This document shows, piece by piece, positions 8,170-62,413 of a stretch of 64,000 nt of DNA. Numbering within the stretch: the stretch's first letter is position 1; the number at the start of each line of letters is the position of its first letter. The notes below the pieces were generated by a model. It saw only the letters and a list, made by a program, of their open reading frames with translations, searched no databases and was not told the DNA's origin. This stretch comes from Vicia villosa. Lineage: Eukaryota > Streptophyta > Magnoliopsida > Fabales > Fabaceae. Location: positions 73,071,553-73,135,552 of the forward strand of contig NC_081185.1 in the NCBI RefSeq assembly GCF_029867415.1, given 5' to 3'. A program made the position numbers and the translations under genes.

Positions 8170-9478
8170 TGTTGATAAGTATACTTTCGGCAAATATTTT
8201 TATATCGTATCCACAGAGATTGGGTGATATTACCGCCGTTCTATAGTTACAATTGTTTTAAGTTGATGAGTGAAAATGAAGTTGGTTTATGTTTGGAGTT
8301 TATCTTGAATATTAGTAAAAAAACTAAGATAGTAAAATATGGTTTTCTCAAATTTAAAAAGTGCTTTGCCAAGATTAGTGTTTCACTATTCCAAACTCAT
8401 GCATTCCCTCAAACCAAGTATATGAATTCTCACTTCATGAATACAATCTAGTATTGCCTCAATAATACTTACATCTAAGTAATATTGTAACAATTGTTAA
8501 ATAACACTTTAGGCAATTTCTTCACCTAAACATACATCTAACCATCATTATTTAGCAATACACATGATAAACAATTCATAAGTCTATTTCTACAACTCAT
8601 GCATTGTTTGAATAAATCTCTAAAACAACATTTATATTATCTTTTTCAACAATAATATAAATCAAAGATAAGATTTCAAAACAAGAGATTCATACTATAT
8701 TCATTCAATGAGAGATTCACATACATGAAGGTTTAAGAGAGATACATAGAGTTATGAAGAATAGCTACCTCTAATCTTGACAAAGAAATAGGGTTTAGTT
8801 CCTCATCACCATGGTTGCAAGCTCACAAAGATGATAAATTTCATTTTTTTGGCTTTTGCTCTCTTTTTCTCTCTGTATTTTTTCTTCCAAAACTGAATAA
8901 TAATTTTAAAACCTAAGTTTTTAGATATTAATCTCTTACACCAAGTTTATCTTTCCAATAAGACAAAAAGAAATGATTGCTAGTCTCTTTTTGCCTCCCT
9001 AAGTGACCAATAGAAATGAATAGCCCCAAAAAGTGCTCTTTTGTTGTCTACCACGCCACCACTTCACATGCCTCCATAAAAGTCAGACTCTTCACTTAAC
9101 ACGCTGGCAGGATTCGCTCAGTTCGCGGCGCCAACAGGAGGACGCGGCGCCAACTGGGCTGACTTGGACATCTCTGATTTTTACTCAGTTCGTGGCGCCA
9201 ACTAGGGGACGCGGCGCGAACTGGCTTGATGATGACTTCTTCCTTGTTTACTTGGCAGCTCCCTTGTGTTCTCTCCGCTCGTATCCTCTTTGATCACTTC
9301 ATGATGTAACATTCTGCAAAACTAGAGAAGAAAGTGAAATACCTACTCAAATAACATAATAACGAGACTAACTTCAATTTCTTGCACTTTGTGTGAGTAA
9401 AGCGTGTGATTTGCAAATAAAAGTTATTAAAGGGACCAATAAAAAGATATGAATTACACTACAATTTGGTCCCTAACA
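8170..9478 (-). mobile_element. 5' LTR of the Athila element (1309 bp)
   Basis: On the minus strand it starts TGTTAGGGACCAAATTG at 9478 and ends CTTATCAACA at 8170, with the PBS following. It includes two pairs of GC palindromes or their decayed forms at about 9121-9157 and 9190-9226, the same motif type as in the spacer of this element. No gene lies in it. Confidence 0.9.
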
Positions 9479-10391
9479 CATATACAAGGGAGAAAGGAGT
9501 TGCTCCAGTCGAAGTGCGTACTGATGTACGGTAACCATGAAGAGCATACGGGAGCATTTCATGCCAATCTTTGTAAGTGATGACCATCTTCTGAATGATT
9601 TTCTTGATGTTTTTGTTAGCTGCTTCTACAGCTCCATTCATCTTTGGTCTGTAAGGAGATGAGTTGTGATGTTCAATCTTGAATTCTTCACAAAGCTCCT
9701 TCATCATTTTGTTATTCAAATTTGACCCATTGTCAGTGATTATCTTGCTAGGAATTCCGTAGCGACAGATGATGTGATTCTTGATAAACCTGACGACAAC
9801 TTGTCTTGTAACGTTTGCATATGAAGCTGCTTCAACCCATTTGGTGAAATAGTCTATAGCTACCAAGATGAAGCGATGTCCGTTGGACGCTTTTGGCTCG
9901 ATCATTCCAATCATGTCGATTCCCCACATGGAGAAAGGCCAAGGGGAAGAGAGTATGTTGAGAAGAGATGGTGGCACATGAATTCTATTGGCGTAGATCT
10001 GGCATTTGTGACACCTCTTTGCGTACTGGTAGCAATCTGACTCCATCGTCAGCCAATAATATCCTGCTCTCAGTATTTTCCTTGTCAGGGTGTGTCCATT
10101 GGTGTGAGTACCAAAGGAACCTTCATGTATTTCTCTCATGAGTATTTCTGCTTCTTTTTTGTCAACGCATCTGAGCAGAACCATGTCGAAGTTTCTCTTG
10201 TACAGAACATCTTCATTCAGGAAGAATCTACAAGCTAACTTTTTTAAAGTCTTTCTATCTTTCTTTGACGCCCCAAGAGGGTATTCTTGCCTTTGAAGAA
10301 AGTTCTTGATGTCGTGATACCACGGTTTGTCGTCGATGATTGCTTCTACTGTGAACACATGAGCGGGCCTATCCAGGCGCATAACATCGAT
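9479..10391 (-). pseudogene. Ogre integrase, truncated by the Athila insertion
   Basis: The frame continues the RT frame after one TAG at 10392-10394. It contains the zinc-binding module (HEGSFGTHTNGH, then CHKCQ) and the catalytic core with D in WGIDMIG, D in TDNGSN and E in GAVEAANKN. The coding sequence stops at PFSLVY, where the next bases are the Athila LTR terminus (TGTTAGGG on the minus strand); the final codons VLGTKL and the stop come from the LTR. The C-terminal part of the integrase therefore lies beyond the left edge. The nonsense codon and the truncation rule out function at this locus. Confidence 0.93.
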
Positions 10392-12540
10392 CTAAGGAAT
10401 GTCATTCCAATGATTTATCCTAATCATGGAAGAGAGTGTGGCTAATGCATCAGCCAAATTGTTTTCTTCACGAGGAATGTGATGAAAATCTACGCTGTCA
10501 AAGAATGGTAACAATCTTCTTGCGTAGTCTTTGTAAGGAATTAGCCCTGGTTGGCGTGTTTCCCATTCTCTTTTGACTTGATTGATGACCAAAGCAGAAT
10601 CTCCGTATACATCCAAGTGTTTGATTCTTAGATCCATGGCTTCTTCGAGACCCATGATGCAAGCTTCATATTCGGCCTCATTGTTTGTGCATTTGAAAGT
10701 TAATCTGGCGGTAAATGGAATATGGGTACCCTGAGGTGTAACAATGATTGCCCCAATTCCTCTTCCATAAGCATTGACAGCTCTGTCAAAGATTAAGCCC
10801 CACTGGGATCCTATCTCAGGTCCTTCGTCGGGTAGTGGCTCGTCGTAATCTTTCATCTTGAGGTACATGACGTCTTCGTCCGGAAAATCGAAACTGGTTG
10901 ATTCATGACCATTGAGTGGGTGGTGAGCCCGGTGCTCAGCTAGAATGCTTCCTTTCACGGCTTTCTGTGCGTGATACTCAATGTCATATTCTGATAACAA
11001 CATCTGCCAACGGGCAATTCTCCCGGTTAAAGCAGGCTTCTCAAAGATGTACTTGATTGGATCCATATGAGAGATCAAACAAGTAGTATGTCGAATCATG
11101 TACTGGCGGAGACGCTTGGCAGCCCAGGCCAAAGCACAACACGTCTTCTCGAGCATGGAGTAGCGGGATTCATAGTCAGTGAATTTCTTGCTCAGGTAGT
11201 AAATGGCATGCTCTTTTCTCTTTGTCTCGTCTTGTTGTCCAAGGACACAACCCCTGGAATCTTCTAAGACAGTTAAGTACATTATCAAAGGTCTTCCTTC
11301 CACTGGAGGAGATAAGATGGGTGGTTCGAGCAGATATTCCTTAATGCTGTCGAACGCTTTCTGACAATCGTCTGTCCAGACGCAACTTTGATTTTTCCGT
11401 AGAAGTTTGAAAATAGGAGCGCAAGTTGCAGTCATGAGATATATGAATCTCGAGATGTAATTCAGACGTCCAAGAAATCCTCTAACTTGTTTCTCGGTTC
11501 TGGGCGAAGGCATTTCTTGAATTGCCTTGACTTTGTCTGGATCTACTTCAATTTCTCGTTTGCTGACAATGAAACCAAGGAGTTTTCCTGAGTAGACACC
11601 AAAGGTGCACTTGTTGGGGTTCAGGCGAAGCTGAAACTTCCGTAAGCGTTGAAATAACTTTTTCAGATTCTGTATGTGATCTTCTTCATTTTCTGATTTG
11701 GCAATCATGTCGTCCACATAAACTTCCACTTCTTTATGCATCATGTCATGGAAAAGTGTAGTCATGGCCCTTTGATAAGTTGCCCCTGCGTTCTTCAGTC
11801 CAAAAGGCATGACACGATAGCAGAACGTGCCCCAGGGGGTGATGAAAGCTGTTTTTTCCATGTCTTCAGGTGCCATCTTGATTTGGTTGTATCCTGAAAA
11901 TCCGTCCATGAACGAGAAAACTTTGGATTTCGCTGTTTTGTCTACCAACATATCAATATGCGGTAAAGGAAAATCATCCTTAGGGCTAGCTTTGTTCAAA
12001 TCTCTGTAGTCGACGCACATGCGGACTTTTCCGTCTTTCTTAGGAACGGGAACAATGTTAGCTAACCACTGAGGGTATTCTGAAGTTACGAGGAAACCTG
12101 CGTTGATCTGCTTTTGAACTTCCTCTTTGATTTTCATGGCCATCTCCGGATGAGTTCTTCTTAATTTTTGCTTGACCGGAGGGCACTCTGCTTTTAATGG
12201 CGAGTGATGCTCCACTATACTGGTATCCAACCCTGGCATATCTTGATAAGACCAAGCGAAGACATTTGAGAATTCTTTGAGCAGCTGTATTAAACTCTCT
12301 CTGATCTCTGAATTGAGCGAAGCTCCAATCTTAACCTCTTTTCTGTTTCCATCGGAACCAAGGTTAATGATCTCTAGAGGCTCATTGTATGGCTGAATGG
12401 CCTCTTCTTTTTGTTGAAGTAACCGGGAAATTTCCTTTGATATTTCTTCGTCTTCTTCTTCCTCTGCCTCGAATACAGGAAACTCAAAGCTTGGAGAAGT
12501 CATACGGTCGCACGTTTCAACGGGGTATTTTATGATTAAT
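10392..12540 (-). pseudogene. Ogre reverse transcriptase, RNase H and archaeal-type RNase H
   Basis: From the first ATG (12503) the frame is open for about 703 codons to a TAG at 10392. RT shows DGFSGYNQIKM and the catalytic YVDD near residue 262. The classic RNase H region follows but looks degenerate. A second RNase H domain (near residues 560-690) is marked by FKCTNNEAEYEACIMGL, DSALVINQV and ENNLADALA. The frame also stays open upstream of the ATG to an AG at 12541-12542, which fits an exon starting after a spliced intron. A terminal TAG separates it from integrase. Dual RNase H is diagnostic of the Tat/Ogre lineage. Confidence 0.92.
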
Positions 12541-17414: not shown

Positions 17415-18851
17415 CTAAAACTTTGACGAAGAGCCGACTTCACGTTCTAACATCTTCTTCTGTTTCTTGAGCTGAGCATTCTCTGACGTGAGCTGATCGA
17501 TGATCCAGGAAGCAGGAGGGATATGATGAGAAAGTGATGATTGTGTCACTTGTCGATCAAGCACTTTAAGTAACTCATCCTTCCTTCTTAGGATGTTTTG
17601 AATCTCAACATTTTCCGTGTTGACAATTTGATACTTGTTCCTCCAAGCATTCCTTTCTTGGCATACCTTGTTTAATGCCGCTTGCAGTTTTTCAACATCG
17701 GTGGAGAAAAGGTAAATTGGTTCCCTTAGGGGAATAGGTTCTTGATGTTGATATGGCATCCTGAGCTTGAATGCTCTGACGCGTACCCATTGAAGGTAAG
17801 GATCCAGGGAGATGCAAAGATGTTTTCCTAACAATCTTCTCCCTTTGCTGTGTACAAGACGCCAGGCTTGGACAATTTCCTTCTTCAGCATGTTGCCATG
17901 ATCGTCGATGTTCTTGAAGAACAAACCTTCCAATTGGATGTTACTTGGAATGTTTTTCATAGGATAGCCGTATTGACGACGGGCTAAAGCTGGATTGTAA
18001 CTGATTCCTCCCTTAGTTCCAATAAGGGGTATGTTGGGAAAACTTCCGCAACTGAAGATGATCTTGGTTTCGTCGTTGTCAGGACTACACCACTCAATGT
18101 CTGTATGAGTGAGAGACATGATTTTCTATGACCAGTAAAGGCCATCCCTCATATTCCAGAAAGTGCTAGACTTTGGCAGGTGCGAAACGAACCATTCGTA
18201 TAACAACGGTACACAGCATGTGATCAATCCTCCTCGCTGCAGGTTTCTTGAATGCACAGAGTGATAAGCATCCGCAAGCAAGGTTGGAACCGGATTTCCA
18301 ATTAAGAAGATCTTAATTGCGTTGATGTCGACGAAATCGTTAATGTTAGGGAACAAAAACAATCCGTAGATAAGCAAAGCCAAGACTTCCTCAAAAGCGC
18401 TCATATCTTGGATGCTGACGAAGTACCGAGCTTGATCAAACAGGAATTTGGAGGGCAATCCTTGAATTCCTCCTCTACTCACCATATGAGTTCTGATGTC
18501 GACTACGTTCAAAGGAGTAGTTGCAGCAATGATAATGTCGTCAGGATTCTTTTCCAAACCGGAGTACGGATCTTGCGCGTACACGAGTATCTCAATCAGA
18601 CGAGAGTACTCCTCTAACGTAGGCATGAGCTGATAATCTGGAAAGGTGAAGCAGTGATACGTTGGATCGTAAAACTGCACCAAGGTGGGAAGGATCCCAT
18701 CCACCATGTTGGTATTGAGCAAAGGCAGAAGTTTTCCATACTTCTCCTTGAAAGCCTGGGGGTTGACCACCAGTTTTCCGAGCTTTCATAGTTCCTCGAC
18801 CTGGGGAATCTTGAAGGTGTATTTCCTAGATCTTTTTCTTCCGTAATCCAT
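17415..18851 (-). pseudogene. Ogre ORF1 (unknown function) with two nonsense codons
   Basis: The frame begins at an ATG at 18851 (MDYGRKRSRKY) and ends at 17415, about 478 codons. A TGA at 18786-18788 (codon 22) and a TAG at 18126-18128 interrupt it; all three parts are in the same phase. The N-terminal two thirds (FKEKYGKLLPLLNTNMVDGI ... FPDYQLMPTLEEYSRLI) correspond to the uncharacterised domain found in ORF1 of Ogre elements and in related plant mobile-domain-like proteins. The C-terminus is predicted to form a coiled coil (NAQLKKQKKMLEREV). ORF1 lies between PBS and gag, a position peculiar to Ogre, and its role is unknown. Confidence 0.82.
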
Positions 18852-19650
18852 GGTATAGATCCTTAAGTCCTTTCTCCGTTTCTCTCTTTCTATGAAGTTC
18901 AAAACGTTCGTTATTTAGTTTCCTTGAAAAACGACTCGAAAAAGACTCTTTTGTTTTTAGTTTTTAGTTGTTTATTAATGAATGATGCATGAATGCATGA
19001 ATGCACACACAAGAGTTTTAAACAAACATGGCGTTGAAGGGTATAGTGGTCATGAAGTCAAAACGCAAACCTCGCCCCAATGGTAAACTAAGGATAAGGA
19101 TTTTTGTACCTGTAGAACGGGTTCTAGGGGTCTCAGAGTTTTTTCTCAACCTTAAAGATACGTTGATTGGTATCTATAAGAGAGTTTCCTCTGAGTGTAG
19201 TATCTGCGTGACAATTACTTTCGTAATCACCGCTCTACGTCTTAAAAAGGCTTTAAGTGGGGTTAATGTGTTTCTAGGTCCTCCTGGTACAAATCAGTCT
19301 CGGAACGCAGTGGCGCAGTTAATCACAACCAGCCAGGCAAATCCCAAGAGTAGACTTGGAAACCAAGATTAGAGGGTCTTCACCGGGAAGACATCCTCCA
19401 TCCTATCTTATGTTGCACTCAAATCCGGGTATAGGATTTCTCACCACAAGGGGGAATCAAGCCCTTTCCCGATACAGAATAAACAAAATAAACAAATATA
19501 TATGCAACAATCACATGATATGACACAGAGGTTAGGCAGGACCTCTCTTGTTTGAGGGGGAATTTGGCATCCCTAATTCCTCATTGGGGCTGGACCAGCA
19601 ACAGGTCAACCATTGGTTTGGGTGAAAAACCAAGGTTTTTAACACTTATA
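18852..19650 (-). other. Ogre untranslated leader between PBS and ORF1
   Basis: I see no coding frame in element sense. One copy of the TTCACCGGGAA stem-loop family is here (19372-19398, stem GTCTTC/GAAGAC plus GAGG/CCTC). A plus-strand frame at 19028-19372 has no recognisable protein features and is treated as chance. Confidence 0.65.
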
Positions 19651-19668
19651 TCCCCAGCAGAGTCGCCA
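19651..19668 (-). promoter_or_regulatory. Ogre primer binding site (tRNA-Arg type)
   Basis: The minus strand reads TGGCGACTCTGCTGGGGA, six bases downstream of the LTR end. This is the PBS reported for Ogre elements and assigned to tRNA-Arg. Confidence 0.92.
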
Positions 19669-20214
19669 TTTTTCTGTGGTGGTCGTTTTCTTTACCTCCC
19701 CGTTTCACTTGGGAGGACGGCACGCTATACCCTTCACGCGAAATTTGGAAGGAGAATGCGCCCGTGGTGGGAGGAATTTTGTTTCAGTTCTTCCTACGAT
19801 ATCACACGAACTTTCTTATTGGTCCTACGAGTAGGAAAGGGAAAAAAAGATCTCAACTAAACCCTAAGAGTTTTCTAAGTGTGGGGATTTCACCTAGACT
19901 AGAAATTCTGGAGTCCGGGGGGTCGGTTATACATAGAGAAGTGTTTAAGCACCCTACATATCTGTAGTACTCTACAGGAACATTCTCTGTGTCATTGTGA
20001 TTGTGTTTATTGCTAATGATTGGGAAAGTTTCTCCTTTGTGTTAGGAGAGAGAATTGAATTGAAAAAAGACAAACAGACAGACAAACTGACTATTTTTGG
20101 TATTTTATTAGCTCGCTGAGATTCCTTGTGAACCTCATGCCTACATATCCCTAGTGGAAGTTAGAGCTTAATGTAGTTCGGAGAACTAACTAGGGAAATT
20201 AATTATTTTTGGTG

Positions 20215-21905
20215 CCTTGCTTAAAGCTCAAGGTTGAAGCTTGAATTAAATCTCTGTTTACAATAAAGAGACATGAAATCATCTTTATAGAGAGGTATTT
20301 GTACTATTCTACCACAAACATTTAAAGGAGTGACAGAATAACTGAATTCATTTCATTCAAGAGGGGGACCTTACTTGTGTATGTGCAAGTATACCAGTCA
20401 AATGCCTCTTAAATGAAAGAAAGATGCTCATCCAAATTAGGGAAAGTTACCACATGTCTGGGTTTTACTGCCAGCTCATGCCTTTCAAAATCCTAAATGG
20501 GAGACTTGATTAAAATTGAAGTTGAAGTTGAAATGTTTGTTTGTTTGAATGTGGTAGAGTAATAAAAATATCTCTTTATAGAGATAAGCTATGTCTATCT
20601 ACTGTATAAAAGATTTGACTTTAGCTGGCTTGTATGAGGCCCAAGCTTGAGGCTTTTTGATTGATTTATTAATTATTATTCATTGACTCTGGGAGATGAC
20701 TCCACTGGGGATTAATTACAGGGTATTTTTGTGTTCTGTACAAAGCCCAGAATTGAGGTTGACTCTACTTAGGGGAAAAAAATTTTTTTGATGGATTTTT
20801 ATTTTGTGTTCTGTATAAAGCCCAGAATTGAGGCTGACTCTAGCTAGAGAAACACTATTTTCTGCCTTGTACAAAGCCCAAGGTTGTGGCAGACTCTTTT
20901 AAATAAATTGAGTATGGATGACTCTTATGGGGAAAAGATCCAAGGTGTTAGGAATCTTTGACTCATGAAAATATGGTTTAAGCTGCCTTGTATAAAGCCC
21001 AAGGTTGTGGCTACTGAATGATGAAGAACTCACTGGGGAGACTCTATTATCTGCCTTGTACAATGCCCAAGGTTGAGGCTGACTCTTGACAGGGAAGTTT
21101 TATTGTTTGGTGCCTTGTATGAAGCCCAAGGTTGAGGCTAACTATTTTTGTTGATTTTGACTCTACTGAGGAGATTTTATTTATTAAAAGACTGTTTTTC
21201 TTTGGAAGCTAACCCTTTCCAGGGATTTTGACTCAACTGGTGAATTTGTCTGTTAAAAGACTGGTTTTATCATGTTTTTTGGAGGCTGACCCTTTCCAGG
21301 GGTTTGTACTCTTTGGGGAAATTATCTCCTAAGAGAATGAATCTTTGGTTTTTTGAAGGACTGATTTTATCATGTTTTTTGGAGGCTAACCCTTTCCAGG
21401 GGTTTTTATTGAAAGGATAGATTGATTTTGGAAGCTAACCCTTTCCAGGGATTTTTATTAGAATGAAGGAATGATTTTGGAGGCTAACCCTTTCCAGGGG
21501 TTTTTATTAGAATGAATGGCAGAAAGATTATCTAGTGGAGACTTCTTGTTTAAAGCCCAAGATGAAGGCTGACACATGCTGAGGATAAGCAAACATAGAT
21601 CCTAGACTCTGCTAAGGAAGATTGATGAAGATAAGGGTGACAGAGACTATCCATGTCTCTCATTCCAAAATGTACTCAATGTAAAATTGAGACAAACTTA
21701 GCTTGTTTAAAGTCTGGTTTAAATTGGAAGAAACTCACCAGGGTAGGCTAAAAGGTAACTAAAGACCTGTTCCTATGTTTATAAGAAACCTGATGGGTCC
21801 TTGTATACAAGCTCAAGAGGAAGCTGGAAATGCTTTTAAGAAGCCTGTGGGTCCTTGTACAAAGCCCAAGAGGAGGCTAATCGAGGGTCCTTGTTATAGC
21901 ACAAG
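20215..21905. repeat. Dispersed array of small stem-loops with constant loop and varying stems
   Basis: Nine copies have a 5-bp stem and a 9-nt loop related to TACAAAGCC: 20215-20233, 20628-20646, 20734-20752, 20809-20827, 20865-20883, 20986-21004, 21054-21072, 21113-21131 and 21544-21562. Most stems are CCTTG/CAAGG, but GCTTG/CAAGC, TTCTG/CAGAA (twice) and TCTTG/CAAGA also occur, always complementary. Three weaker copies lie near 21799, 21853 and 21890. Most copies are followed by a GAGGCTGACTCT-like tail. Spacing is irregular (55 to 430 bp). Confidence 0.9.
21211..21502. repeat. Five copies of a CCCTTTCCAGGG stem-loop motif
   Basis: Copies start at 21211, 21288, 21388, 21437 and 21486, each preceded by GGAGGCT or GGAAGCT. 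The core forms a stem of CCC/GGG, extended to AACCC/GGGTT in two copies and ACCC/GGGT in one. The two copies with GGGATT lose the outer pairs. Confidence 0.85.
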
Positions 21906-21952
21906 AGAAAGCTATGTAGTTTTGAACTTATTTTGGCTCTAAGCAAATGGGT

Positions 21953-22442
21953 AAGAGGTTTCACCGGGAATAATTCCTCTTTGGGTGGATGTGTCCTATT
22001 TTTTTGGATTCTAAGGTTTTTGCCAAGATGTTTCACCGGGAATAATTCATCTTGGGGGTTTGAACTACAGATCTCTAATTAGGAAAAAGCCTTCACCGGG
22101 AAGACATTCTCAATCCTAGGCCATATTCCTATAATATATATATAGTTTAACTGTCCTAAGGTTTATACTCAAACGTAGTTCTAAACTAATATACATGCAC
22201 AGTTTATATCTGACAGTAATTTAAATAAAGACTGTAAATTGAAAGCTTGTAAAACCTAACCTGGATGGAGTGGAGGCCTTTGAAGAAGTATATACAGAGC
22301 CTCAACAGTATTTGGTGGATAACAGTTGAATATATATATATGATAAATAGTTAATGGTTTTTGAAAACAGAAGAGGTGAAGATGGACAAAGGTCACATAG
22401 GTATCTGAAGAGTTTCACCGGGAATAATGCCCTTCAAATACC
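21953..22442. repeat. TTCACCGGGAA stem-loop family, four copies here and one in the leader
   Basis: Copies at 21953-21981 (AAGAGG/CCTCTT) and 22023-22055 (CCAAGATG/CATCTTGG) enclose the identical 17-nt loop TTTCACCGGGAATAATT. A copy at 22400-22442 pairs GGTAT/ATACC and GAAG/CTTC around nearly the same loop. One at 22091-22103 has the minimal CTTC-ACCGG-GAAG form, and a fifth is in the leader at 19372-19398. Confidence 0.85.
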
Positions 22443-23024
22443 AGAAGAATGTTTTGAAAACAGAAAGAAGATTTTGAAAATACGGTTTTGAAAACAAGCT
22501 TAGAAGAGAAGGTGTTTGGGACTTACACTCTATTAGAGGCCCAGTACTTTACAGTACTGGTTAAAAAAGCAATTTGAAAATGTTTTGAAATGATATAAGG
22601 TTTTGTTGTTTGAAAACCTTAATCATCCGTTTAATCGGAGACTGATAACAACTTTGAAAATTGACAAAAAGTCAACTTATTTAAGGTAAAGAATAAAGAT
22701 CTATGCCTAATTAAGACCCTAACAATTAGGGTTTTATCATAAGCTTATTCACAAAATAAATAGGTTAAAATAAAATGACAATATATATTTAAAGTATTTA
22801 AGAAAACACTTAAAAACATACTATTTTAAACCTAATTAAAATACATGAAATAAATAATATTTTTTATGATTTTTTTTTATTATTCACAAAATAGATATAT
22901 TAAATGACAAGTGTGTGAAAAATGAAGTGAAAATAAATTAATTTGATAGGTTAAATAATTGGTTGAAGTTGTGAAGAAATCAGATGGAAAAAAGTGGTAA
23001 AAAATAGGGTTTTGTCACCAACCA

Positions 23025-23077
23025 GGTTTGAACCCACGCCTTTTATGTTACCAGCCCAAAACAACACCACTGAGCCA
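23025..23077 (-). other. tRNA-like segment in the Ogre LTR (copy 1)
   Basis: On the minus strand an A-box-like TGGCTCAGTGG (23077-23067) is followed about 32 nt later by a B-box-like GGTTCAAACC (23034-23025). Spacing and order match an internal RNA polymerase III promoter. I cannot fold a full cloverleaf, so I do not call a tRNA gene. Confidence 0.55.
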
Positions 23078-23181
23078 ACGCGCGCTTAGTGACAAAAGTA
23101 TGGTTCCATTGCAAATCATACATTACTCAAGTGCATAGAAGCAATAAAAGAGAAATAAAATCAAAAGGTCTGTGGCGAGGG

Positions 23182-23241
23182 GGATTCGAACCCCAGACCT
23201 TGGGCACGCGCAACACACAAACACTCTTTACCACTGGGCTA
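23182..23241 (-). other. tRNA-like segment in the Ogre LTR (copy 2)
   Basis: The minus strand has TAGCCCAGTGG (A box, 23241-23231) and GGTTCGAATCC (B box, 23192-23182), both fitting the tRNA consensus, in the same orientation as copy 1 and the LTR. The T-arm-like hairpin GGGGTTCGAATCCCC is perfect. The rest does not make a convincing mature tRNA. Confidence 0.6.
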
Positions 23242-23649
23242 TCACGTTTTAGTCGTTTATAAGACAACTATCACTCAAAATAAAATAAACTCTTTCCTGA
23301 ATTTGAATTTTTGCGCGCCACCACCATTGTCATCTTCAACCTCTAGCTTTGAATTTTTGAAAATCTCAACTCTCTCAACTCTCAACCATTTGCAACGATG
23401 TAAAGACCAAACTTGCTCTAAATTCACTCACGATTCTAAATATGTAACTAACATATATTTATATTAACTACATCTAACTAATTTACCAGAAATCGTGAAG
23501 AACCCTAAAATTTAAAAATCAAATTAAATGGCTATACTGAAAGATAAATGAATGATGATAGAGGGTTTTCAATCCTCTGATGATGCTGAACAAGATAGAA
23601 TCGAGCTATATCATAAAGAGTGCTTAAATTAAAGAGGTGGAGTTCAGAA

Positions 23650-23655
23650 ACTTAC
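23650..23655 (-). promoter_or_regulatory. Candidate 5' splice site in the Ogre LTR leader
   Basis: The minus strand reads CAGAGGTAAGTTTC, a near-perfect plant donor site, about 540 nt downstream of the TATA-like box. Similar donors occur in two related LTRs of this window. Confidence 0.45.
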
Positions 23656-24190
23656 CTCTGAAAATGGAGGTCGTGAGGATGATAGAGAGCAACTGGGCTT
23701 GTATGAATGATCCCAAAAGCTTCCTTGGGACTCAGTGATGCTAACTGAATGCTTGTTGTAACCTCAATCCTTCTGAATTGTTCTATGGACCTCCCTCGAT
23801 TTGAGCTTCAAGTGAACATGGAGAGTGATGATTCTTGAGTTACAGATGAGCTGCAGCCATCTGAACAGCTTCACTACCTCCTATGGAACGTGCCTGGATG
23901 CTTGGCTCGATTGGAAACCTTCTGAATTGCACTATGGACCTCCAACTGCAACAGCTTCAAAGTGAGAGCAACAATGGTGTTCCTCCACTTACAGAAATGA
24001 TCCAGGTGCTTGGATCACCTCAAATGACCTCCCTTGAGATGTTAGAATGCTTACTTTCCAAAGATAAGCTCTGGTTTGAAGAAAACGATTCTTCTTGCCA
24101 AAGAACTTTGAAAAACAATAAGCATGAGAAGAGAAAGAGAAAGCAAGGAATATGGTTGCTTTGGTGTGTTTTCTGAATGAGAAAGAGGCC

Positions 24191-24200
24191 TTTATTTATA
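24191..24200 (-). promoter_or_regulatory. TATA-like box of the Ogre LTR
   Basis: The minus strand reads CCTATAAATAAAGG, a TATA box followed by a GC-richer segment, about 1.35 kb from the LTR start, so U3 would be about 1.35 kb and the R-U5 part about 4.5 kb. Confidence 0.65.
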
Positions 24201-25552
24201 GGCAAATGATGCTGAGCAATCGGAGATAGTAAGCTTGCTTAATGAAGTCACTTTGGTTTCTTAGCCATGAAGAAATTCAAAGAATATCCCAAGTGCAATG
24301 ATGAGTTCTTTGATACCACTCCCTAGCCATCGGTTTTGCTTGATCTTAGGGGACAAATTTGCTACAGAAATGAGTTCCAATTGGTTGGGAGAAGATTCCT
24401 TTGATGAATCACCAATTTGCCATAAATTCACAAATGTAATCATTACATAATCACATGTTCTTGTTTTTGAGAATATTCTCCAATCCTTATGTAATGATGG
24501 AAATTGATGTATGGCATGCTTGCAGATGTATTAGAGGTCGTGTAGCATCACTTAGTGAAGCAAAATGCACAAAATTGCAAAGTTCCAAATTGTACATGAC
24601 CTATAATTTCACTTCATGAGGCCAACTTTGAACAAGCATAACTCTTAGCTCAAAATGAATTTGGAGAAGGTTGAACACAATTTGGAAAGCCCTAAACATC
24701 TACTTTAAATCATTAGTTTGGAGTTTCTTCAAAATCCTTTGGCAAATTTGTGAAAAATGAGGCTAAAGTTGGAAGAAAACTAGGTTAAAACACTTAGAAA
24801 AATTTCTAAGTGTTTATGACCTAAAACTCCAAAATTTCCAAAACTCTTAAATGATTGATCTTTTGAAAAAAGTTCCTTTGTAAGATGTTGTTTTATTTTG
24901 CAAGATCTACAACTTTCATGTTGGAAGTTTTTTGAGTTGTGTAGGTGAAATTTTGAGTTCTCACCATGCCTTAAAAACCCTAATTCCCGACTTTTTGCTC
25001 CTTGATGAATTTCTTTGAATTTTTTTGGTCAAATGACTTTAATATCCATATATTGATGATATTGATCCTTGAAAGTCATGGTTTGACCAAAAATCAACTA
25101 TCCTGGTGAATTAGGTCAAAAACCCTAATTGTCGACCATATGAAAATAATGACTGTAGACCTTGAATTGAGGTGTGATGTCCAGTGGATCTTGTCATATG
25201 AGTTATTTGAAGATGATTGATGTCTTTGAATGGTCCCCTAGGGCTTTTTAGGGTTTCCCAAAGGTGATCCCTGGTTTTAGTCCTTGATAGGCTCAAAAAC
25301 CCTAGTCTGGTGACCTGAGTAAATCTGTACTCAAATGACTGGGTGTCTAATCAATCATAGGTGAAATAATGAAGCTCTTGAGTCTTATGATTGTATTAGA
25401 GACTAATCCTTCTATTGATTGATCCTTTGCCCGAGTTTTCTTGTCTTTGAACATCCTTGATTGAATGTCAGACTACTCTGGGTACTTACTTTGACTTGAT
25501 GAAAATCCTGAAGATATGTCATCTCAGGGGGGGCAAAAATTAGGGTATGACA

Positions 25553-25595
25553 CCACTCTACATCTTCAGGTTTAAGATAATTGAACAGGGGCAGT
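25553..25595 (+). mobile_element. Internal 3' tail and polypurine tract of a plus-strand Ogre-like element
   Basis: This 43-bp segment between the minus-strand Ogre and the next LTR ends GAACAGGGGCAGT, a purine-rich tract immediately before TGTCATACCCC, as expected at the 3' end of an Ogre internal region. The minus-strand Ogre therefore appears to have inserted just upstream of this element's 3' LTR; the rest would lie beyond the left edge. Confidence 0.6.
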
Positions 25596-26751
25596 TGTCA
25601 TACCCCAAAATTTGCCTATACTATTTCTCCTACTCAAATTCAAATCAATACATAAAGCTCCAAGACACATTCTCCTATACAAAGCTCAGAAACTAGGGTT
25701 TGGTTTACCCAAAGGAAAATCAGTGAATCAATGGCTCCAAGGCATCTCATATGGCTCAATATATCTCACATCATCTCCATGACAAATATCAAGTCTCATC
25801 TCAAAAGATTGGTCACTCAATTGTTCAAAAAGTCAACAGTCGACTAGGTTAACCTAGAAGTCAACTGTGGTCAAAGTCAAAACTTCTAATTTTTTGTCAA
25901 GATCCTCATATTGAAGTATCATTCACCATTTGATCAAGAATTGATCATGGTTCATCAAGGAAAGATCAAAAATCAACAAATCAAAAAGTTTCTAAATTAG
26001 GGTTTTGTATAGGAAAAGTCAACTGAAATTTGACCAGCCATAACTCTCACATGGAACCTCCAAAATTTTCCATCCAAAGCTCATTTTTAAGGAAATTTGA
26101 TTCTCTACAAATTTGTGTCTCACATGCCAAGTCTAAAAATGCACCATTTGAGAGATATGGACTAAAACATTACAGGTCCTTTTCAAAAGTCAACAAAAAG
26201 ACACTTTTTTCAAAAGGATATATAAGGAGCATGGAAAATAATTTTGATATGAGACCAAAGACACTGGTTAGAGGACTCTCTAAGGTTTCTAAAAAGTCCT
26301 AGAACACTTCCATATCACAAAAATTGAGAGAGATAGACCTGGTCAAAGTTGGACTATTTTGGAGGGAAAAATGTGAAAGAATTTGAACATTTTTGCAAAT
26401 GGGTTCAAGTTCTTTTAATCCAATCTTGATCCTCATGTATCCAAGAGCCCAAGATCTTATTGCCACGAAAATATATGGTTTTATTTGATTTATTGTGATT
26501 TTTTATTTGAATTAAAAGGATTTAAAATGACATAAATCAAAAGAAAATCAAATCTTTGGCAAGAGGTGTGATTTGAATCTAATTTCATCATCAAATATAT
26601 CACATAATCAATGCAAATTCGTGGAAAGCAAGATTGGTATAATTAAAGCAAGATTGGCCAATTTTAGAAGCTTTTTAAAATCAAATTTCCCAAATTGCAA
26701 ATCAAAGATTTCTTAAGATTCAAGGCCAAAGATTCACCCTAATCACTCTCC

Positions 26752-44077: not shown

Positions 44078-46154
44078 TGTAACACCCGTATATTTTAATT
44101 TTTAATTTAAATGGAAATTTAATTTATAATTAGAATTATTGGTGGTTGGTGGGGTTTAATTGGAAGAAAGATGGTTTATAGTGTTGGGCCAAGTGTGGTA
44201 TTAGTAAAGAGGGGGTGCTATGTTAGTAAAGCCCTTTACTAAATTAAAAATCTATTTTTCATAAAAATAAGGAATTGAGGAAAAAAGGAAAATAGATGTG
44301 GAAGAGGAGCAGAAAAGTAGAAGTGCTGATACGTGAAAGAGGAACAGAAGAGGAAGAGGGCTAATCAAGATCCTTGGCTAAGGTAAGGGGGGACTCTTCC
44401 GGTTAATATCTTTTATCGTATTATAGATAATAGGACTGATTAGATGCTTTGTTTGTGTCAATTGGTTATATGATGGATTGGGGTTTTGGGATGATTTTGA
44501 GGGGAATTGTATGATTTGATGAATTGTATGATTATATGATTGTTATGATGATTGAATGATCCTCTTTGTGTGTTATATTTGTGTTATAACATGTATGTGG
44601 CTGATATGGTGGTAATTGAGGTTCATGACATAACTTGGTTGGGTTTTGGGGATTTTGGGGTAAATCCCGTAATGCTGTCAATTGCGATGAAAGTTGTGAC
44701 TTCTGCCAGTTCGCGCCGCGAAGGTGGGTGCGCGCCGCGAAGGCGGAGTAATTTTCTCGTTCCGCGCCGCGAACCTGTGTTTGCGCCGCGAAGGCGTGTT
44801 TTCTATTCGTTACGCGCCGCGGACTGTGGGTGGCGCCGCGTGCTGTAGCGATAATTGTTTTCTTTGAAAAATGTAAAGATGTGTAACTTTCAAACCGTAT
44901 GTCCGTTTTAGACGCCGTTTTGGACGATGTTCCTTAAATTGAATGTTCTACCATATGAAATGAATAAAATAATAACAACTTGATTTTATTTTAAAAAGTA
45001 TCATTTTCTTCAAATGTAGTTTATCCTGGTTTTGCATAGTTGATGAGATGCAATGGTTGTTGTGTGCATAATTGAATATGTGCAATGATGTATGTTGTGA
45101 TAATGTGGTTGCTTCTGTTAATTGTGCAAATGGGTGTTATTGTTGTTGCACTGTATGATGAATGATTTACCTGTCATGATGTTGTGGTTGTAATTGGTGT
45201 TTGTTATACATATATTGTTGATGTAAAATATGTATTTTATTGTGGTTGAGAAATAGCATAATTGTGTATGGCTATTGATTATTGTGGTGGTTGATGATTA
45301 TGACATTTGGTTGATTTATGTGGGTGATAAGCATGTTATGGTTGATACATGCATTCATAATCATTATGTGGCTGATCCTTGACGATGGTGGATCAGTGGT
45401 AGCTAATTCCCATTGTGTGGAATTAGTGAGTGGGTGTTGCCGTATCCTTGACGATGGTGGATCGGTGAGTTGGGTTATCCCAGATTTTGGTACCACATGC
45501 ATATAGTTGCATTTGCATTAGGCTACTTGTGTTATTATAACATGAATGGAAGATTGTCCAATGTTATAATATGTGATGATTGTGTAATGGTTATGATTTG
45601 TTTGGATGAATTATGGTGTTGTCTCTTGGTAATGTATTCTATTTGTTGTTGTGTGTTGATGAGTACTTCCTGACAATCTGAATATAATGAAATTGGATGA
45701 ATAATGTGACTATGATGTGTTATTGTTTATGATTCGATAACATTTGTTAATTGTGAATGAGACTCACCCTTACTTTGATGATTTCAGATTGGCGAGTAGC
45801 GGCTTTTGGCTCGGTGAGGATTAGCTCATGAGCCAGTTTGTTTAGTGTAGCGTCGGTGTCATGCTCTGATATTGTAACACTGGGGGAACGCTAGCTTAGA
45901 TTTGATGATGATACTCTATTTTGTTGTTATTGGAGTAATTTTGTGAGATATTGCATAGATGATGTTATGCTTATCTGTTGATTAATGTTCCGCTGTATAG
46001 AAACATGATTTTGTTAAATGGATAATTTTCCCCTAAGTGAAGCATGACAATTGATTTATGATAATTTGTTTTAAATTGAATTGTGGCACCCTTGTTTTCA
46101 TGTTTTACTCTGAATTATTTTATTAATTTTCGCGGGGTTTAGAAGGGTGTTACA
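44078..46154 (+). mobile_element. 5' LTR of the young element (2077 bp)
   Basis: TGTAACACCCG to GGGTGTTACA. A cluster of GC-rich palindromes is at 44708-44845. The 98-codon frame at 44552-44848, present in both LTRs, starts at a TTG and reads through the palindromes; I do not regard it as a gene. Confidence 0.95.
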
Positions 46155-49100
46155 ATAGTGGTATCAGAGCAGGTCGGTCCGTCCGGCCAATTGTCGAGTC
46201 AGTTGAGTTACACGACGGTTGAATACTGTCGGCATTTTTATTCCTTGGTATGCGACATGTGAGTGAATCACTGTCGGTACTTGGTTGTTTGTTGCAGGTG
46301 TGGGATTGAAACAAGTGGGGGAGAAGCTTCGCTTCTCGGTTATGTTTCAGTTGAAGAAGATTGATTCAGTAGGCTGTTGTTGGCAACAGTGCGAGCGTTG
46401 TTGGAGTTTGTTGTTTCGCGAGTTGAAGGTGACTTGGAATTAAGACTTCACTGGGAATTGAGTTGGAACATCTGGAAGGAAGATGATTAGAGGTAATTGA
46501 CATTTATTGTAAGAGAAGGAAAATTGGAAAGTTGCAATGTGTCAGCTCTACTGGTGTGCTGCGAAGTTGTCAGTTGAGTAGCCTTACGACTCAGAAGAGG
46601 TTCAGCTGCAAGTTTGCGAAGAGGATTGATGTAGTAATGTTCCAGAAATTGCGCTTCGGCGATGGGAAGTGTTGCTCAAGTTATAATAATGTTTGGAAGT
46701 AAAGAGATATGATAAGGGGCTGTTTGGAATGTGATAGAGTTGAAGAGAATGAGTTTTTGAGTGAGATTTTCGTAAGCAAAACGCAGGAAAATTGCTGAAT
46801 AGCTGCAGAACTTCGAAAATTCATAACTGGAGTTCTGGACATCCGATTTGAGTTCCGTTTGAAGCGTCGGAAAGCTAACGAGATGAACTTTATTATAAAA
46901 ATGGTTGCAGCAGCTGTAACATAATTAATTATGACAGGAGGACGTTGGAAGGAGGCGAAGTTGCGGTTACTCTTGTTCTTATAACTAGACTTGTTTATTG
47001 GTACTGCACGGGATGTCGGTGTTAGTGTTGAACGGATTGAAGGAACGATTAGAAGGTTGTTGAGAAGTGATTTTAAGAATTGAATATGCCATTTGAAGAG
47101 ATTTGAGAATACCGTATAGAGAGTGTCGGGGCATGATGTCAGTGTTGGATTTTCGGACGACGATTGGAAAATTCATATCTTGAGTTCCGAGTGTCGGATT
47201 AACGTGCCGTTTGAACCTATGAAGAGGGGGGATTATGTTCTACATTATGGGAGAGTTATAAATACAGTAGAGGTGATCCTATGAGAAGATATTCTGAATT
47301 CAGTTAAGGAAGCGTGAAACTTGTTGAATAGGAATGCCTACTACCGTGATTGTTTGAAACAAAAATCGAGTAGAATATGTTGTCGATGAATAAGTTGACG
47401 AGATGTTCGTTGATAAAGATGACTTGAGTACCGATGGATTTTAATGAGAAGTGAATTAGTAGTAAAGATGGGACAAACTTTAGAACCCTTGGAATCGTAT
47501 TTGTGATGGCAAAGTAACGATAAGTATAAAAGAAGAATTGTTGGGAATTTCTAACATTTGTTGACGTGGGGAAGACTTTGTTGAGATTCCGAGTGGGATG
47601 ATATTTGGACGTGAAGGATGTAATAGAATTTGGATTAAAACCACGAGTTATGAACGTTGTGCTATTGTGTTGCGTAGGAAGTCTTTAAAAATGTCGGTGC
47701 TAATGATGAATGAGTTGGATTTAATTGGAAAATTCTGAGACTCGAGTTGGTATGTGAAGGCACTTCTAATAGTGTTAGCTTGGGTATGCTAAAGATGACT
47801 AGTGGTATTCTTGACGAGATTAGAGAAGGTCAGCAAGATGATGTGAGTTGATCGATAGGTTGACTTTGAATTACCAAGGTAAAGGCGGTGAATTCAGAAT
47901 CGACGGGAATAATATAATGAGGTTGAGTGATTGGATTTGTGTAACTGATGTTTTGAGCTTCGGAAGAATATTCTAGAAGAAGGACACCGTAGTGGATTAT
48001 TGGACTATGACGATGTTAATGAGTTTGAGTGCAAACTCGGAAATGGACACTATTATGTAGTAACGACGGTTTATGCTTAAATATGATTTTCAACTAATAT
48101 TGACAAATTTAGGACTTGATCACCCTAAATCTCTTGTTGGTAGTAGATGAAATCATATAGAAGAGATAAGCTTGTTTTGTTACCTTAATGGTTTAAGATG
48201 TGATGAATACTAAGCCGTGAGAATAATCACTCACTATGTTGTGTGAACTTATGAAGAAGTGAATATGAAAGAGTGCAACATGGTGGATGATGACTTAAGA
48301 CGGGTAATCAGAGTCGCGCAGCGAAAGTGTGATGTGGAGTATGTTATGAGCACTACTCGCGGGAAGTAAGGAATTAATATGTCGGAAGCCTACATAGAGA
48401 ATATGTATTGATCTATATGTTGGATTTAGAATCCAGTGGATGTAAGGAGGTCGTGTCGAAGAATTATAACTCTTTTGAATAATTTCCGAGATGATGAATA
48501 TGTCATTACGGTTGTACGTAGTTAACGAGTATGTATTCGGCGAAAGTAAAACGAAGGATTGATAATATATGATGCTGTAATAATTTTGTGCTGTTATTGA
48601 GGTGATATTGTAAATTCCAGATATAATGAGGAATTACACTCTATGAAGGACGGAGTTGATTTGATTCTTAGTAGAGAGCGTGACTTAGTTGAGCTTTTTT
48701 TTGTAAGCGATGGTATACTGAGGCTGATGAGTGTGTACTTGTTCTGATGGTTAGGATGTTTAAATAGAGGAAGTGAATCGGGAATTGGTTTTCGTTGGAT
48801 GCGAGTAAGGATTGCTAAATGGTAGATTAGTACCATGAATGATGAAGAATGATTCTTGAAACGAATGAGTAAAGAGAGTCGGAATCGGGTAAAACTCAGA
48901 AATCTATTTGGTATAGCTGATTGTGATGAGTAATCAGAGTAGTGCGGAAAAAGCGGAATGTAAAGTGTTGGATAATTGCTGGTGTGACTTAAGAGGAGTC
49001 AGATAATTGGAATCCAATGGTATAGGAATATGAGTATTGAGTTTCTTGAAGGAAGCGGTTGGTGAAAAGTGTAAGTATTGTTTTATCGCTCAGATGGAAG

Positions 49101-49471
49101 AGTGTATCTGAGGTTGGTATGTTGGTAGATGGAATGCATTACTGCATTGTGGATCAAGTGTGATCATACTAAGGATTGTGTAATTGTATTACTCAGTTGT
49201 TGAGCGTATGGTATAGGTTGTACCTCAAGTTCTATCGTTGTTAACCTTTTGGAGATATTATGAGTGGTACACCTTGGATGGTCAAATGTGACGTAAGAAC
49301 TGGGATTGGAATGTATGAAACATGTTTCCTGTTGGTTATGTTGGATGGATTTTGAGGATTGACTGATGGTACTGTTAATTGGGAGCTGGAGAGTCGGGTG
49401 AAGGACTCTTATACGAGCTGGTTACTTGAGGTATGTTTTCGAGGACGAAAACTCTTTTAGTGGGGGAGAGT
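46155..49471 (+). other. Non-coding interior of the young element
   Basis: It opens with the PBS TGGTATCAGAGCAGG at 46159-46173 (tRNA-iMet type) and closes with the polypurine tract GTGGGGGAGAG at 49460-49470. Between them the sequence is stop-rich in all frames. It is G/A-rich on the plus strand with many GGAAG/GAATTG words. Degenerate pol cannot be excluded, but I recognise no motif. Confidence 0.85.
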
Positions 49472-51548
49472 TGTAACACCCGTATATTTTAATTTTTAAT
49501 TTAAATGGAAATTTAATTTATAATTAGAATTATTGGTGGTTGGTGGGGTTTAATTGGAAGAAAGATGGTTTATAGTGTTGGGCCAAGTGTGGTATTAGTA
49601 AAGAGGGGGTGCTATGTTAGTAAAGCCCTTTACTAAATTAAAAATCTATTTTTCATAAAAATAAGGAATTGAGGAAAAAAGGAAAATAGATGTGGAAGAG
49701 GAGCAGAAAAGTAGAAGTGCTGATACGTGAAAGAGGAACAGAAGAGGAAGAGGGCTAATCAAGATCCTTGGCTAAGGTAAGGGGGGACTCTTCCGGTTAA
49801 TATCTTTTATCGTATTATAGATAATAGGACTGATTAGATGCTTTGTTTGTGTCAATTGGTTATATGATGGATTGGGGTTTTGGGATGATTTTGAGGGGAA
49901 TTGTATGATTTGATGAATTGTATGATTATATGATTGTTATGATGATTGAATGATCCTCTTTGTGTGTTATATTTGTGTTATAACATGTATGTGGCTGATA
50001 TGGTGGTAATTGAGGTTCATGACATAACTTGGTTGGGTTTTGGGGATTTTGGGGTAAATCCCGTAATGCTGTCAATTGCGATGAAAGTTGTGACTTCTGC
50101 CAGTTCGCGCCGCGAAGGTGGGTGCGCGCCGCGAAGGCGGAGTAATTTTCTCGTTCCGCGCCGCGAACCTGTGTTTGCGCCGCGAAGGCGTGTTTTCTAT
50201 TCGTTACGCGCCGCGGACTGTGGGTGGCGCCGCGTGCTGTAGCGATAATTGTTTTCTTTGAAAAATGTAAAGATGTGTAACTTTCAAACCGTATGTCCGT
50301 TTTAGACGCCGTTTTGGACGATGTTCCTTAAATTGAATGTTCTACCATATGAAATGAATAAAATAATAACAACTTGATTTTATTTTAAAAAGTATCATTT
50401 TCTTCAAATGTAGTTTATCCTGGTTTTGCATAGTTGATGAGATGCAATGGTTGTTGTGTGCATAATTGAATATGTGCAATGATGTATGTTGTGATAATGT
50501 GGTTGCTTCTGTTAATTGTGCAAATGGGTGTTATTGTTGTTGCACTGTATGATGAATGATTTACCTGTCATGATGTTGTGGTTGTAATTGGTGTTTGTTA
50601 TACATATATTGTTGATGTAAAATATGTATTTTATTGTGGTTGAGAAATAGCATAATTGTGTATGGCTATTGATTATTGTGGTGGTTGATGATTATGACAT
50701 TTGGTTGATTTATGTGGGTGATAAGCATGTTATGGTTGATACATGCATTCATAATCATTATGTGGCTGATCCTTGACGATGGTGGATCAGTGGTAGCTAA
50801 TTCCCATTGTGTGGAATTAGTGAGTGGGTGTTGCCGTATCCTTGACGATGGTGGATCGGTGAGTTGGGTTATCCCAGATTTTGGTACCACATGCATATAG
50901 TTGCATTTGCATTAGGCTACTTGTGTTATTATAACATGAATGGAAGATTGTCCAATGTTATAATATGTGATGATTGTGTAATGGCTATGATTTGTTTGGA
51001 TGAATTATGGTGTTGTCTCTTGGTAATGTATTCTATTTGTTGTTGTGTGTTGATGAGTACTTCCTGACAATCTGAATATAATGAAATTGGATGAATAATG
51101 TGACTATGATGTGTTATTGTTTATGATTCGATAACATTTGTTAATTGTGAATGAGACTCACCCTTACTTTGATGATTTCAGATTGGCGAGTAGCGGCTTT
51201 TGGCTCGGTGAGGATTAGCTCATGAGCCAGTTTGTTTAGTGTAGCGTCGGTGTCATGCTCTGATATTGTAACACTGGGGGAACGCTAGCTTAGATTTGAT
51301 GATGATACTCTATTTTGTTGTTATTGGAGTAATTTTGTGAGATATTGCATAGATGATGTTATGCTTATCTGTTGATTAATGTTCCGCTGTATAGAAACAT
51401 GATTTTGTTAAATGGATAATTTTCCCCTAAGTGAAGCATGACAATTGATTTATGATAATTTGTTTTAAATTGAATTGTGGCACCCTTGTTTTCATGTTTT
51501 ACTCTGAATTATTTTATTAATTTTCGCGGGGTTTAGAAGGGTGTTACA
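49472..51548 (+). mobile_element. 3' LTR of the young element (2077 bp)
   Basis: Identical to the 5' LTR at an offset of 5394 except for the one substitution noted. GC palindrome cluster at 50102-50239. Confidence 0.95.
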
Positions 51549-52755
<1,207 letters not shown>

Positions 52756-55159: not shown

Positions 55160-56481
55160 TGTTGCACCCCAAAATTTGCCCACCTAATTTTATTTCTAAA
55201 TGGCTTGTGCATCTCATAATCTCTCCATTAGGTCATCTAACATTAATGCATCATTGATCAATAAAGTTGGTATGGGATCAAGAATCTTGTAGAATGAGGT
55301 TTTATTTGTTGAGCTTGAATTTGACAAAGGTATTTCAATTGAGGTTGACTGGCATTAAGATTTCATCTAAACAAGCCTGGTTCAACTAATTATGTGTTGT
55401 GCAAGTCAAGATTTTGGGTGCCATGCAAGGATTTAATTTGAATTTATGTGGAATTTTAGTTTCATTTCAAGGCATTGTCAAAGTTTTGACTTTTGGCCCA
55501 AGTCAACCTTGGAAAGTTGACTTTTGAGCCAAAGGTCCTTCTTAAATATTTACGTTGGTTCTTTATCTCATCTATGCTTATCCAAGATTGCAAGAATTGG
55601 TGGGAAATGTTAAAGATCTATAATTAGGCACTTGGAGAGAAAAAGGAGATTCAGATCTCTTTTGAAAGGAAAAAAGAAATATTTACATTACAAGGTTCAA
55701 ATGTTTCAATTATCATTTCCATTTATACTCTCCATCATTCACGGGCAGAGGAGATTCATGTTTCTATCCTTAGTCTAAAGTGCCTTCAAGGCATCCACAT
55801 TACAAAAACATTACAAAAGTCCACATCATTCACAATTTCAAGCTCAAGGTACATTATCTTATATTGCAAAAAAATTTATGTATTACATCTCAAAAAAACT
55901 ACAAAATTCATGTTCATCAAAGCCAATAATTGTCCTATAAACCTAGTGTTTCTAAGTCTCCAACTACATCACCTCCCACCACCCTTGCTCCTGATGCCCA
56001 CGCTCCATTCAAATTTGCAAACTTCAAGGTGCTTCATAGTTCAAGTTACCATCCTCCATCATGGTGATTCACCTCCACCAACATATGTCTTCAAAATCTG
56101 TCACCTTGCCATCATATACTTACACAGGGTACCTGCAAAACCAGAAACAGATCCAAGTTATCCCTGCTGCAAATCAAAAACAAAACAATTATTACCATCC
56201 AGTCATTTAACCTACCAAAAACAAAAAACTTTAAACCACACTCCTAACCGTTTCTAGCTTCAAGCTAAATGCCCTAACAGATTTGATAACTAACTCATAA
56301 CCAACTTACCAATTTCTAACAGCTTGTAACCTATTTCAAACTAACCTCTAACCAACTTTTGTAACAGAAAGACAGTTTTATAACTAACTTTCATAACACC
56401 TATAACTGAATAACAAACTCAGAACCAGTCCCTAACAGAATAAGACAAATAGTTTCTAACCATATCATTCAACTATGTAAC

Positions 56482-56634
56482 TGATAGGAAGAAGTTCCTA
56501 CCAAGGCAATAGGATTAGGGTTTCAACAATAAAAAGAAAGACATTAAAAATAAGCTAAAAAGTAGAGATAAAAATAACTTTTGATTTCATTGATTGATTC
56601 CAAATGTCTCTATGAGACTACAATATATACTACT
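56482..56634 (-). repeat. Truncated left LTR of the short-LTR element (153 bp)
   Basis: Base-for-base identical by eye to 62414-62566. It is cut where TGTGGACCTCCG, the terminus of an Ogre-like LTR, begins. The missing 105 bp and the polypurine tract were not found elsewhere, so a deletion probably accompanied the insertion. Confidence 0.9.
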
Positions 56635-62411: not shown

Positions 62412-62413
62412 AT

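Follow-up and report, generated by a model that had tools for sequence, protein, structure and literature searches.

What keeps a series of small hairpins paired inside the long terminal repeat (LTR) of a plant retrotransposon while the letters of their stems change? The question is raised by positions 20215–21905 of the window, a 64,000-nucleotide (64-kb) stretch of Vicia villosa DNA, where a sequence-only reading had described hairpins with a kept loop and a varying stem. We analysed these hairpins, the element that carries them and the explanations that could account for their pairing.

Host element and its LTR

The array lies in an interrupted element on the minus strand, which encodes ORF1 (DUF7745), gag, reverse transcriptase (RT) with two RNase H domains, and integrase. 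Its main features are listed here.

19675..25552, minus strand: 5' LTR of 5,878 bp, ends read from the sequence (element sense TGTCATACCC...CCACCACA)
19651..19668, minus strand: primer binding site (PBS) TGGCGACTCTGCTGGGGA, after the 5' LTR in element sense
24194..24200, minus strand: candidate TATA box TATAAAT, in element sense, inside the LTR
17415..18770, minus strand: ORF1 (DUF7745), two open frames with an interruption between them
9459..12503, minus strand: RT followed by RNase H and an archaeal-type RNase H (RVT_3); integrase in an open frame of its own

Ogre elements, which belong to the Tat lineage of Ty3/gypsy, are marked by a very long LTR, a tRNA-Arg PBS and an extra ORF upstream of gag. 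Here the PBS TGGCGACTCTGCTGGGGA is presumably of the tRNA-Arg type, and the extra upstream ORF is represented by the DUF7745 frames at 17415–18770. The domains RVT_1, RT_RNaseH and RVT_3 follow one another in 10392–12503, with integrase in 9459–10382. Ogre and Retand elements have two RNase H domains, the archaeal-type one lying between RNase H and integrase (as described in sections of PMC6317226), and both domains are present in this element. Judged by domain order and by an ORF1 with DUF7745, the array does lie in the LTR of an Ogre-type element, as had been claimed; the domain order itself is common to Ogre and Retand. A protein search with ORF1 returned 24 matches, in which the named proteins came from pea (32–59%) and soybean (40%) and unnamed ones reached 98%; the named pea homologues of the part at 17415–18119 (32–59%) come from records without an Ogre label. 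Repeat comparison within the 64-kb window revealed no second copy of the LTR. Ogre elements drive most of the genome-size variation in the vetch/pea tribe (57%, according to portions of PMC4659654).

The array had been placed downstream of the LTR promoter in element sense, a position that agrees with the candidate TATA box at 24200–24194. An assumed start near 24160 would put 5,390 nt, with 57 ATGs, ahead of ORF1. Since further TATA-like sites occur in element sense at 23463, 22787, 22340–22336 and 22144–22140, this start is an assumption only.

The LTR has other features of its own. Two tRNA-like stretches in element sense (23000–23112 and 23165–23262) contain the words GGGTTCAAACC and GGGTTCGAATCCCC, which we take to be box A-like and box B-like. 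ARAGORN found no tRNA genes, these two stretches included, and the second has only a 15-nt sub-threshold Rfam match. A 12-bp perfect hairpin lies in U3 at 24769–24831, where, on either strand, local folding reaches its lowest z-scores within the LTR, and several copies of an odd palindrome, GTTTTGAAAAC or close forms, occur at 22340–22620. Elsewhere in the window, direct repeats at 44078–46155 and 49472–51549 (2,078 bp, 99.95% identity) flank a 3,316-bp interior with no listed ORF of 200 aa, and the pair at 44078–51549 resembles a gene-less LTR element of very recent origin. Certain GC-rich words (CGCGGCGC or its reverse complement, for example) recur in the tandem repeats at 2172–2412, 9117–9252, 44712–44840 and 50106–50234. 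The window also contains a direct repeat (62411–62566 and 56479–56634; 156 bp, 99.4% identity) and an F-box gene at 52756–53892.

Family A hairpins and the origin of their paired changes

We refer to the hairpins of the array as family A, to their 5-bp stem as S1 and to an interleaved second stem, AGCC/GGCT, as S2. Copies are identified by their first plus-strand position.

20215..20233, minus strand: hairpin 1, CCTTG/CAAGG
20628..20646, minus strand: hairpin 2, GCTTG/CAAGC
20734..20752, minus strand: hairpin 3, TTCTG/CAGAA
20809..20827, minus strand: hairpin 4, TTCTG/CAGAA, duplicate of hairpin 3
20865..20883, minus strand: hairpin 5, CCTTG/CAAGG
20986..21004, minus strand: hairpin 6, CCTTG/CAAGG
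21054..21072, minus strand: hairpin 7, CCTTG/CAAGG
21113..21131, minus strand: hairpin 8, CCTTG/CAAGG
21544..21562, minus strand: hairpin 9, TCTTG/CAAGA, the U-A end of the series
21799..21818, minus strand: hairpin 10, TCTTG/CAAGG with U-G in element sense, 10-nt loop
21853..21871, minus strand: hairpin 11, TCTTG/CAAGG with U-G in element sense, 9-nt loop
21889..21906, minus strand: hairpin 12, TCTTG/CAAGG with U-G in element sense, 8-nt loop

The first nine copies align without gaps around a 9-nt loop. Their stems are CCTTG/CAAGG (five copies), TTCTG/CAGAA (two), GCTTG/CAAGC and TCTTG/CAAGA (one each), and the report of nine dispersed copies with always-paired 5-bp stems was borne out: all 45 S1 cells are Watson-Crick pairs, and three of the five pairs have changed on both sides. 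The last three copies had been described as keeping a 4-bp stem. This is correct on the plus strand, where they have four Watson-Crick pairs and an outer C against A, and it does not hold in element sense, where the outer pair is U-G and five pairs are kept. Across the 12 copies, 60/60 S1 cells are thus paired in element sense (three of them U-G), as against 57/60 on the plus strand. One array therefore holds C-G, U-G and U-A forms of the same S1 pair, and the outer U-G makes the "4-bp" copies intermediates of this series; such forms are the steps expected of compensatory change in RNA. The hairpin observation is confirmed, in an element-sense form cleaner than the one first described.

We compared the pairing with chance by shuffling alignment columns. 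With nine copies, none of 500 shuffles reached the observed share of cells paired or the covariation score, and 56 reached the number of pairs with both-side changes. With 12 copies, the share paired, the cells with both-side changes and the covariation score exceeded all 500 shuffles, and the number of pairs with both-side changes was reached by 12. Further pair types were no more frequent than in shuffles (459/500 for nine copies, 253/500 for 12). Hairpins of at least 5 bp, with two or more G/C and loops of 3–20, were about 1.8-fold enriched in 20215–21905 (28 versus 15.9, sd 4.2); those of at least 6 bp were not (5 versus 5.2).

To avoid choosing copies by their stems, we trained profiles on the loop and 3' flank columns only. 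A profile from the five CCTTG copies placed all four held-out copies above background on both strands of the 64 kb, each with 5/5 pairs, the last of them by a narrow margin (lowest held-out copy 16.4, best background site 15.7). Profiles from the two TTCTG copies, or from 20628 and 21544, placed six of seven held-out copies above all background; the exception, copy 20215, ranked below a few background sites and is still fully paired. Any background sites among the 14 best sites of each loop profile had at most three Watson-Crick pairs. A covariance model built from the 12 copies necessarily found all 12 again in the window; no other match fell below E = 0.5, the next having E = 0.54.

Independent mutation does not account for these stems. 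We built a UPGMA tree from the 31 non-stem columns of the nine copies and evolved the ten stem columns independently along it; at each of three rates, none of 20,000 runs reached the observed pairing and both-side changes. The paired changes thus stand above both shuffles and neutral simulation within this one array, and all p-like values derive from one element and one LTR. The paired changes trace back to only some three lineages, represented by GCTTG, by TTCTG and by the TCTTG group. The sequence-only reading had taken such changes as a mark of selection or templating on RNA structure. That reading is partly supported: independent mutation does not explain the changes, and a preference for selection over templating does not follow.

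RNA selection has a serious rival in template switching from one repeat arm to the other. A polymerase or reverse transcriptase would rewrite one arm of an inverted repeat from the other, and pairing would arise without selection. In yeast, arm homogenisation with multi-nucleotide changes at short inverted repeats is documented, and some of the cases began from an ancestral continuous arm of no more than 4 or 5 bp (excerpts of PMC8604942). Within the array, comparing the TTCTG copies with CCTTG copies 20865 and 21054 shows differences in 6/10 stem columns and in only 16–19% of the 31 others, as a single clustered event would give, and long perfect inverted repeats are also present in U3. The three clustered paired changes in TTCTG and the 4–5-bp yeast cases thus favour templating (PMC8604942, in part). 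However, the yeast search took only arms of at least 7 bp after the event, longer than the 5-bp arms of family A. Arms of 7 bp were weakly linked with multi-nucleotide changes (8/42 genes), longer ones more strongly (11/16 at 8 bp, 10/10 at 9–11 bp; PMC8604942, same sections). Moreover, the three U-G copies are un-homogenised yet paired as RNA, mismatched intermediates are absent in element sense, and all 12 loops share one orientation, the other-strand loop matches among those listed being without an intact stem. Spacer inversion, the other product of template switching, occurred in yeast only with arms above 9 bp (as reported in those parts of PMC8604942). Overall, we consider templating a somewhat unlikely source of the array.

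Recent duplication of already-varied units had also been proposed. Without present constraint on pairing, plain duplication of a few such units could spread paired stems. The TTCTG copies 20734 and 20809 arose by recent duplication (85% identity over 60 bp), and 20849–20898 and 21038–21087 are 88% alike over 50 bp. Stem distance bears no relation to flank distance in the nine copies (r = -0.18), so duplication alone does not account for the other stem variants, and the origin of several different perfectly paired stems is left unexplained by it. As an account of the whole array, duplication appears unlikely.

Family A hairpins do not stand out by their stability. The nine isolated hairpins have ordinary fold energies (z from -0.79 to 0.41), and when 100-nt flanks are included, S1 reaches a mean pair probability above 0.3 in 1/12 copies in element sense and in 4/12 on the other strand. 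Stable local structure is thus unsupported as an explanation of family A, and with S1 mostly unformed in context, protein binding or another context would be required. Averaged over the LTR leader, local fold z is nearly equal on the two strands (-0.38 and -0.32).

Two further candidates were rejected. The topology of an H-type pseudoknot formed by S1 and AGCC/GGCT is present, but S2 fits the non-transcribed strand better (94.4% paired on the plus strand, 88.9% in element sense); in element sense, the nine copies have 4/36 S2 cells unpaired and one both-side change. Rfam gave no support to a known RNA family over 18700–25700: its one match, 15 nt of tmRNA, scored 12 bits where the gathering threshold is 47 (E = 0.11).

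Pattern scans of viral and genome contigs returned no relatives. Sixty-three viral contigs matched our patterns (1 + 62 for the short motif), none with a blastn DNA match to the window or a tblastn match (E 1e-5) to seven of its reading frames, and we therefore take these pattern matches as chance. Two more scans of viral contigs found no relative. In genome contigs, the family A pattern had no match and the PBS pattern matched one contig, with nothing significant beyond those 20 bases.

Families B and C

A second set of 5-bp hairpins, family B, lies within the same array.

21211..21502, minus strand: family B, five copies (21211, 21288, 21388, 21437, 21486), AA[C/T]CC CTGGAAA GGGTT or close

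Family B was ruled out as a covarying family, with no both-side changes. Its copies do differ in a linked fashion, A/A versus G/G, at positions that form no base pair. Duplication has therefore produced linked changes in the array, a point in favour of the duplication account given above.

In element sense, AATAAA stands directly before three family B hairpins, and two further AATAAA follow family A hairpins by 5 and 8 nt. The array contains eight AATAAA in element sense, noted at 20665–21508 (shuffle mean 1.81; 0/300 shuffles reach eight), with three on its other strand and three in element sense in 21906–25552. TTGTA, a plant upstream poly(A) word, occurs six times in element sense (mean 1.66), though nine times on the other strand (mean 2.82). 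These signals suggest that the array might be a module for 3'-end formation, lying at the end of R, in which the hairpins would space or regulate several poly(A) signals. However, on our reading the eight AATAAA sites reduce to about five origins (three lie in duplicated family B units and two overlap), so that the excess is modest, and a start near the TATA box at 24200 would make R some 2–3.5 kb long. It is known in general that long R regions can contain conserved stem-loops and that AATAAA occurs in LTRs (from what parts of PMC3601003 describe). We judge such a module quite improbable; it overlaps with the reading of the hairpins as RNA structures under selection.

A third family lies outside 20215–21905. 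The motif TTCACCGGGAA (UUCCCGGUGAA in element sense) has five exact copies, at 21960, 22032, 22092, 22414 and 19379, in stems of up to 13 pairs.

21953..21981, minus strand: C1, 6-bp stem, loop AATTATTCCCGGTGAAA
22023..22055, minus strand: C2, 8-bp stem, 17-nt loop as in C1
22400..22442, minus strand: C3, 13 pairs, two of them G-U only in element sense
22089..22105, minus strand: C4, GTCTTC CCGGT GAAGGC (one G-U)
19376..19392, minus strand: C5, GTCTTC CCGGT GAAGAC, a leader copy located after the PBS and before ORF1

C1–C3 share a 17-nt loop, with one copy differing at the first base. Their inner eight pairs show both-side changes in five pairs among the three copies, which 2/500 shuffles reached; the same five appear on the other strand, and 22/24 cells are paired in element sense as against 20/24 on the other strand. 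With 14-nt flanks in element sense, only 1/500 shuffles folded as well as C2 and 1/500 as well as C3, whereas C1, C4 and C5 were ordinary (85, 180 and 72 of 500). The element strand had the lower z in 5/5 copies with these flanks and in 4/5 with 26-nt flanks, where C4 was reversed and only C2 and C3 stood out. Mean stem pair probabilities in context were 0.60, 0.992 and 0.997 for C1, C2 and C3 in element sense, and 0.00, 0.14 and 0.02 on the other strand. On these predicted folds, family C appears stronger than family A and the better candidate for real RNA structure. Its apical loop holds the self-complementary CCGG, which would fit a loop-loop contact.

Wobble pairs were counted in both senses. 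Element-sense G-U pairs occur in family A S1 (three copies), C3 (two pairs), C4 (at least one) and family B (two copies), and other-strand G-U pairs in family A S2 (two) and family B (one). This tally leans to the element strand and is not decisive, as the C3 and C4 stems were defined on the element strand, so that its count is favoured; the three U-G copies of family A likely represent one event.

A possible role in the leader and comparison with known systems

We tentatively propose that the LTR leader carries repeated small RNA hairpins (12 copies of family A, five of family C) in which the loops are kept and the stems, though drifting in sequence, stay paired in the element-sense transcript. 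The array would be transcribed, and selection on RNA pairing, not mutational copying, would maintain it. In favour of RNA selection are the U-G intermediates, the greater strength of family C and the lack, in element sense, of any mismatched intermediate; the small number of independent events, the single element and an S1 that is mostly unformed in context count against it. Taken together, we regard repeated element-sense hairpins, kept by selection on RNA pairing and with a role in the leader, as possible, at a little under an even chance. Support is moderate for the RNA part and low for the function.

If the hairpins are selected as RNA, they may serve as binding sites repeated along the genomic RNA, with Gag, during packaging and dimerisation, as the most likely partner. 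Retroviral leaders carry packaging hairpins downstream of the PBS, and C5 has the same position, in line with a packaging role; BARE, a plant element compared below, belongs to Ty1/copia. By analogy with retroviral leaders (PMC5035971) and barley BARE (PMC3735527), each as far as the sections cited go, the likeliest role would be in packaging or dimerisation, and we hold it to be doubtful. Equally doubtful is a distributed packaging or dimerisation code, in which families A and C (perhaps B) would be weak sites read together by Gag, with kept loops and freely drifting paired stems in a long leader of repeated hairpin modules. Such a code would give plants an equivalent of multi-site packaging signals, placed inside giant LTRs. 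Hairpins with kept loops and drifting stems would offer a direct target for probing, deletion and Gag-binding tests, and if templating is the cause, the array would instead be a natural record of inverted-repeat arm copying.

We found no description of how Ogre RNA is selected for packaging in the portions of the literature examined, and no hairpin array in Ogre LTRs among the matches listed (titles in the open-licence literature on Ogre and plant LTR elements). By term count, "packaging signal", "stem-loop" and "hairpin" do not occur in a review, published in 2025, of the host factors of plant LTR elements (PMC12786077). This silence is weak evidence of novelty.

Among known systems, the Psi/DIS leader hairpins of retroviruses resemble the array in having kept-loop hairpins around the PBS and, as in family C, a self-complementary loop (PMC5035971, in part). 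The array differs in its leader of about 5 kb, its 12 + 5 copies and its host, a plant Ty3/gypsy element. Barley BARE, also a plant LTR retrotransposon, is said to have conserved dimerisation and packaging signals, and the portion of PMC3735527 that describes them does so without a hairpin array of the kind found in this Ogre LTR. The tandem repeats of the Ogre 3' UTR are likewise repeats inside Ogre, thought to arise during replication; they lie downstream of gag-pol, whereas the array lies in the LTR and its units keep paired stems (PMC7004042, sections on these repeats). Inverted-repeat homogenisation in yeast produces the same matched arms and clustered changes, but with arms of at least 7 bp and with spacer inversion (PMC8604942, as excerpted), while family A combines 5-bp arms with no inversion.
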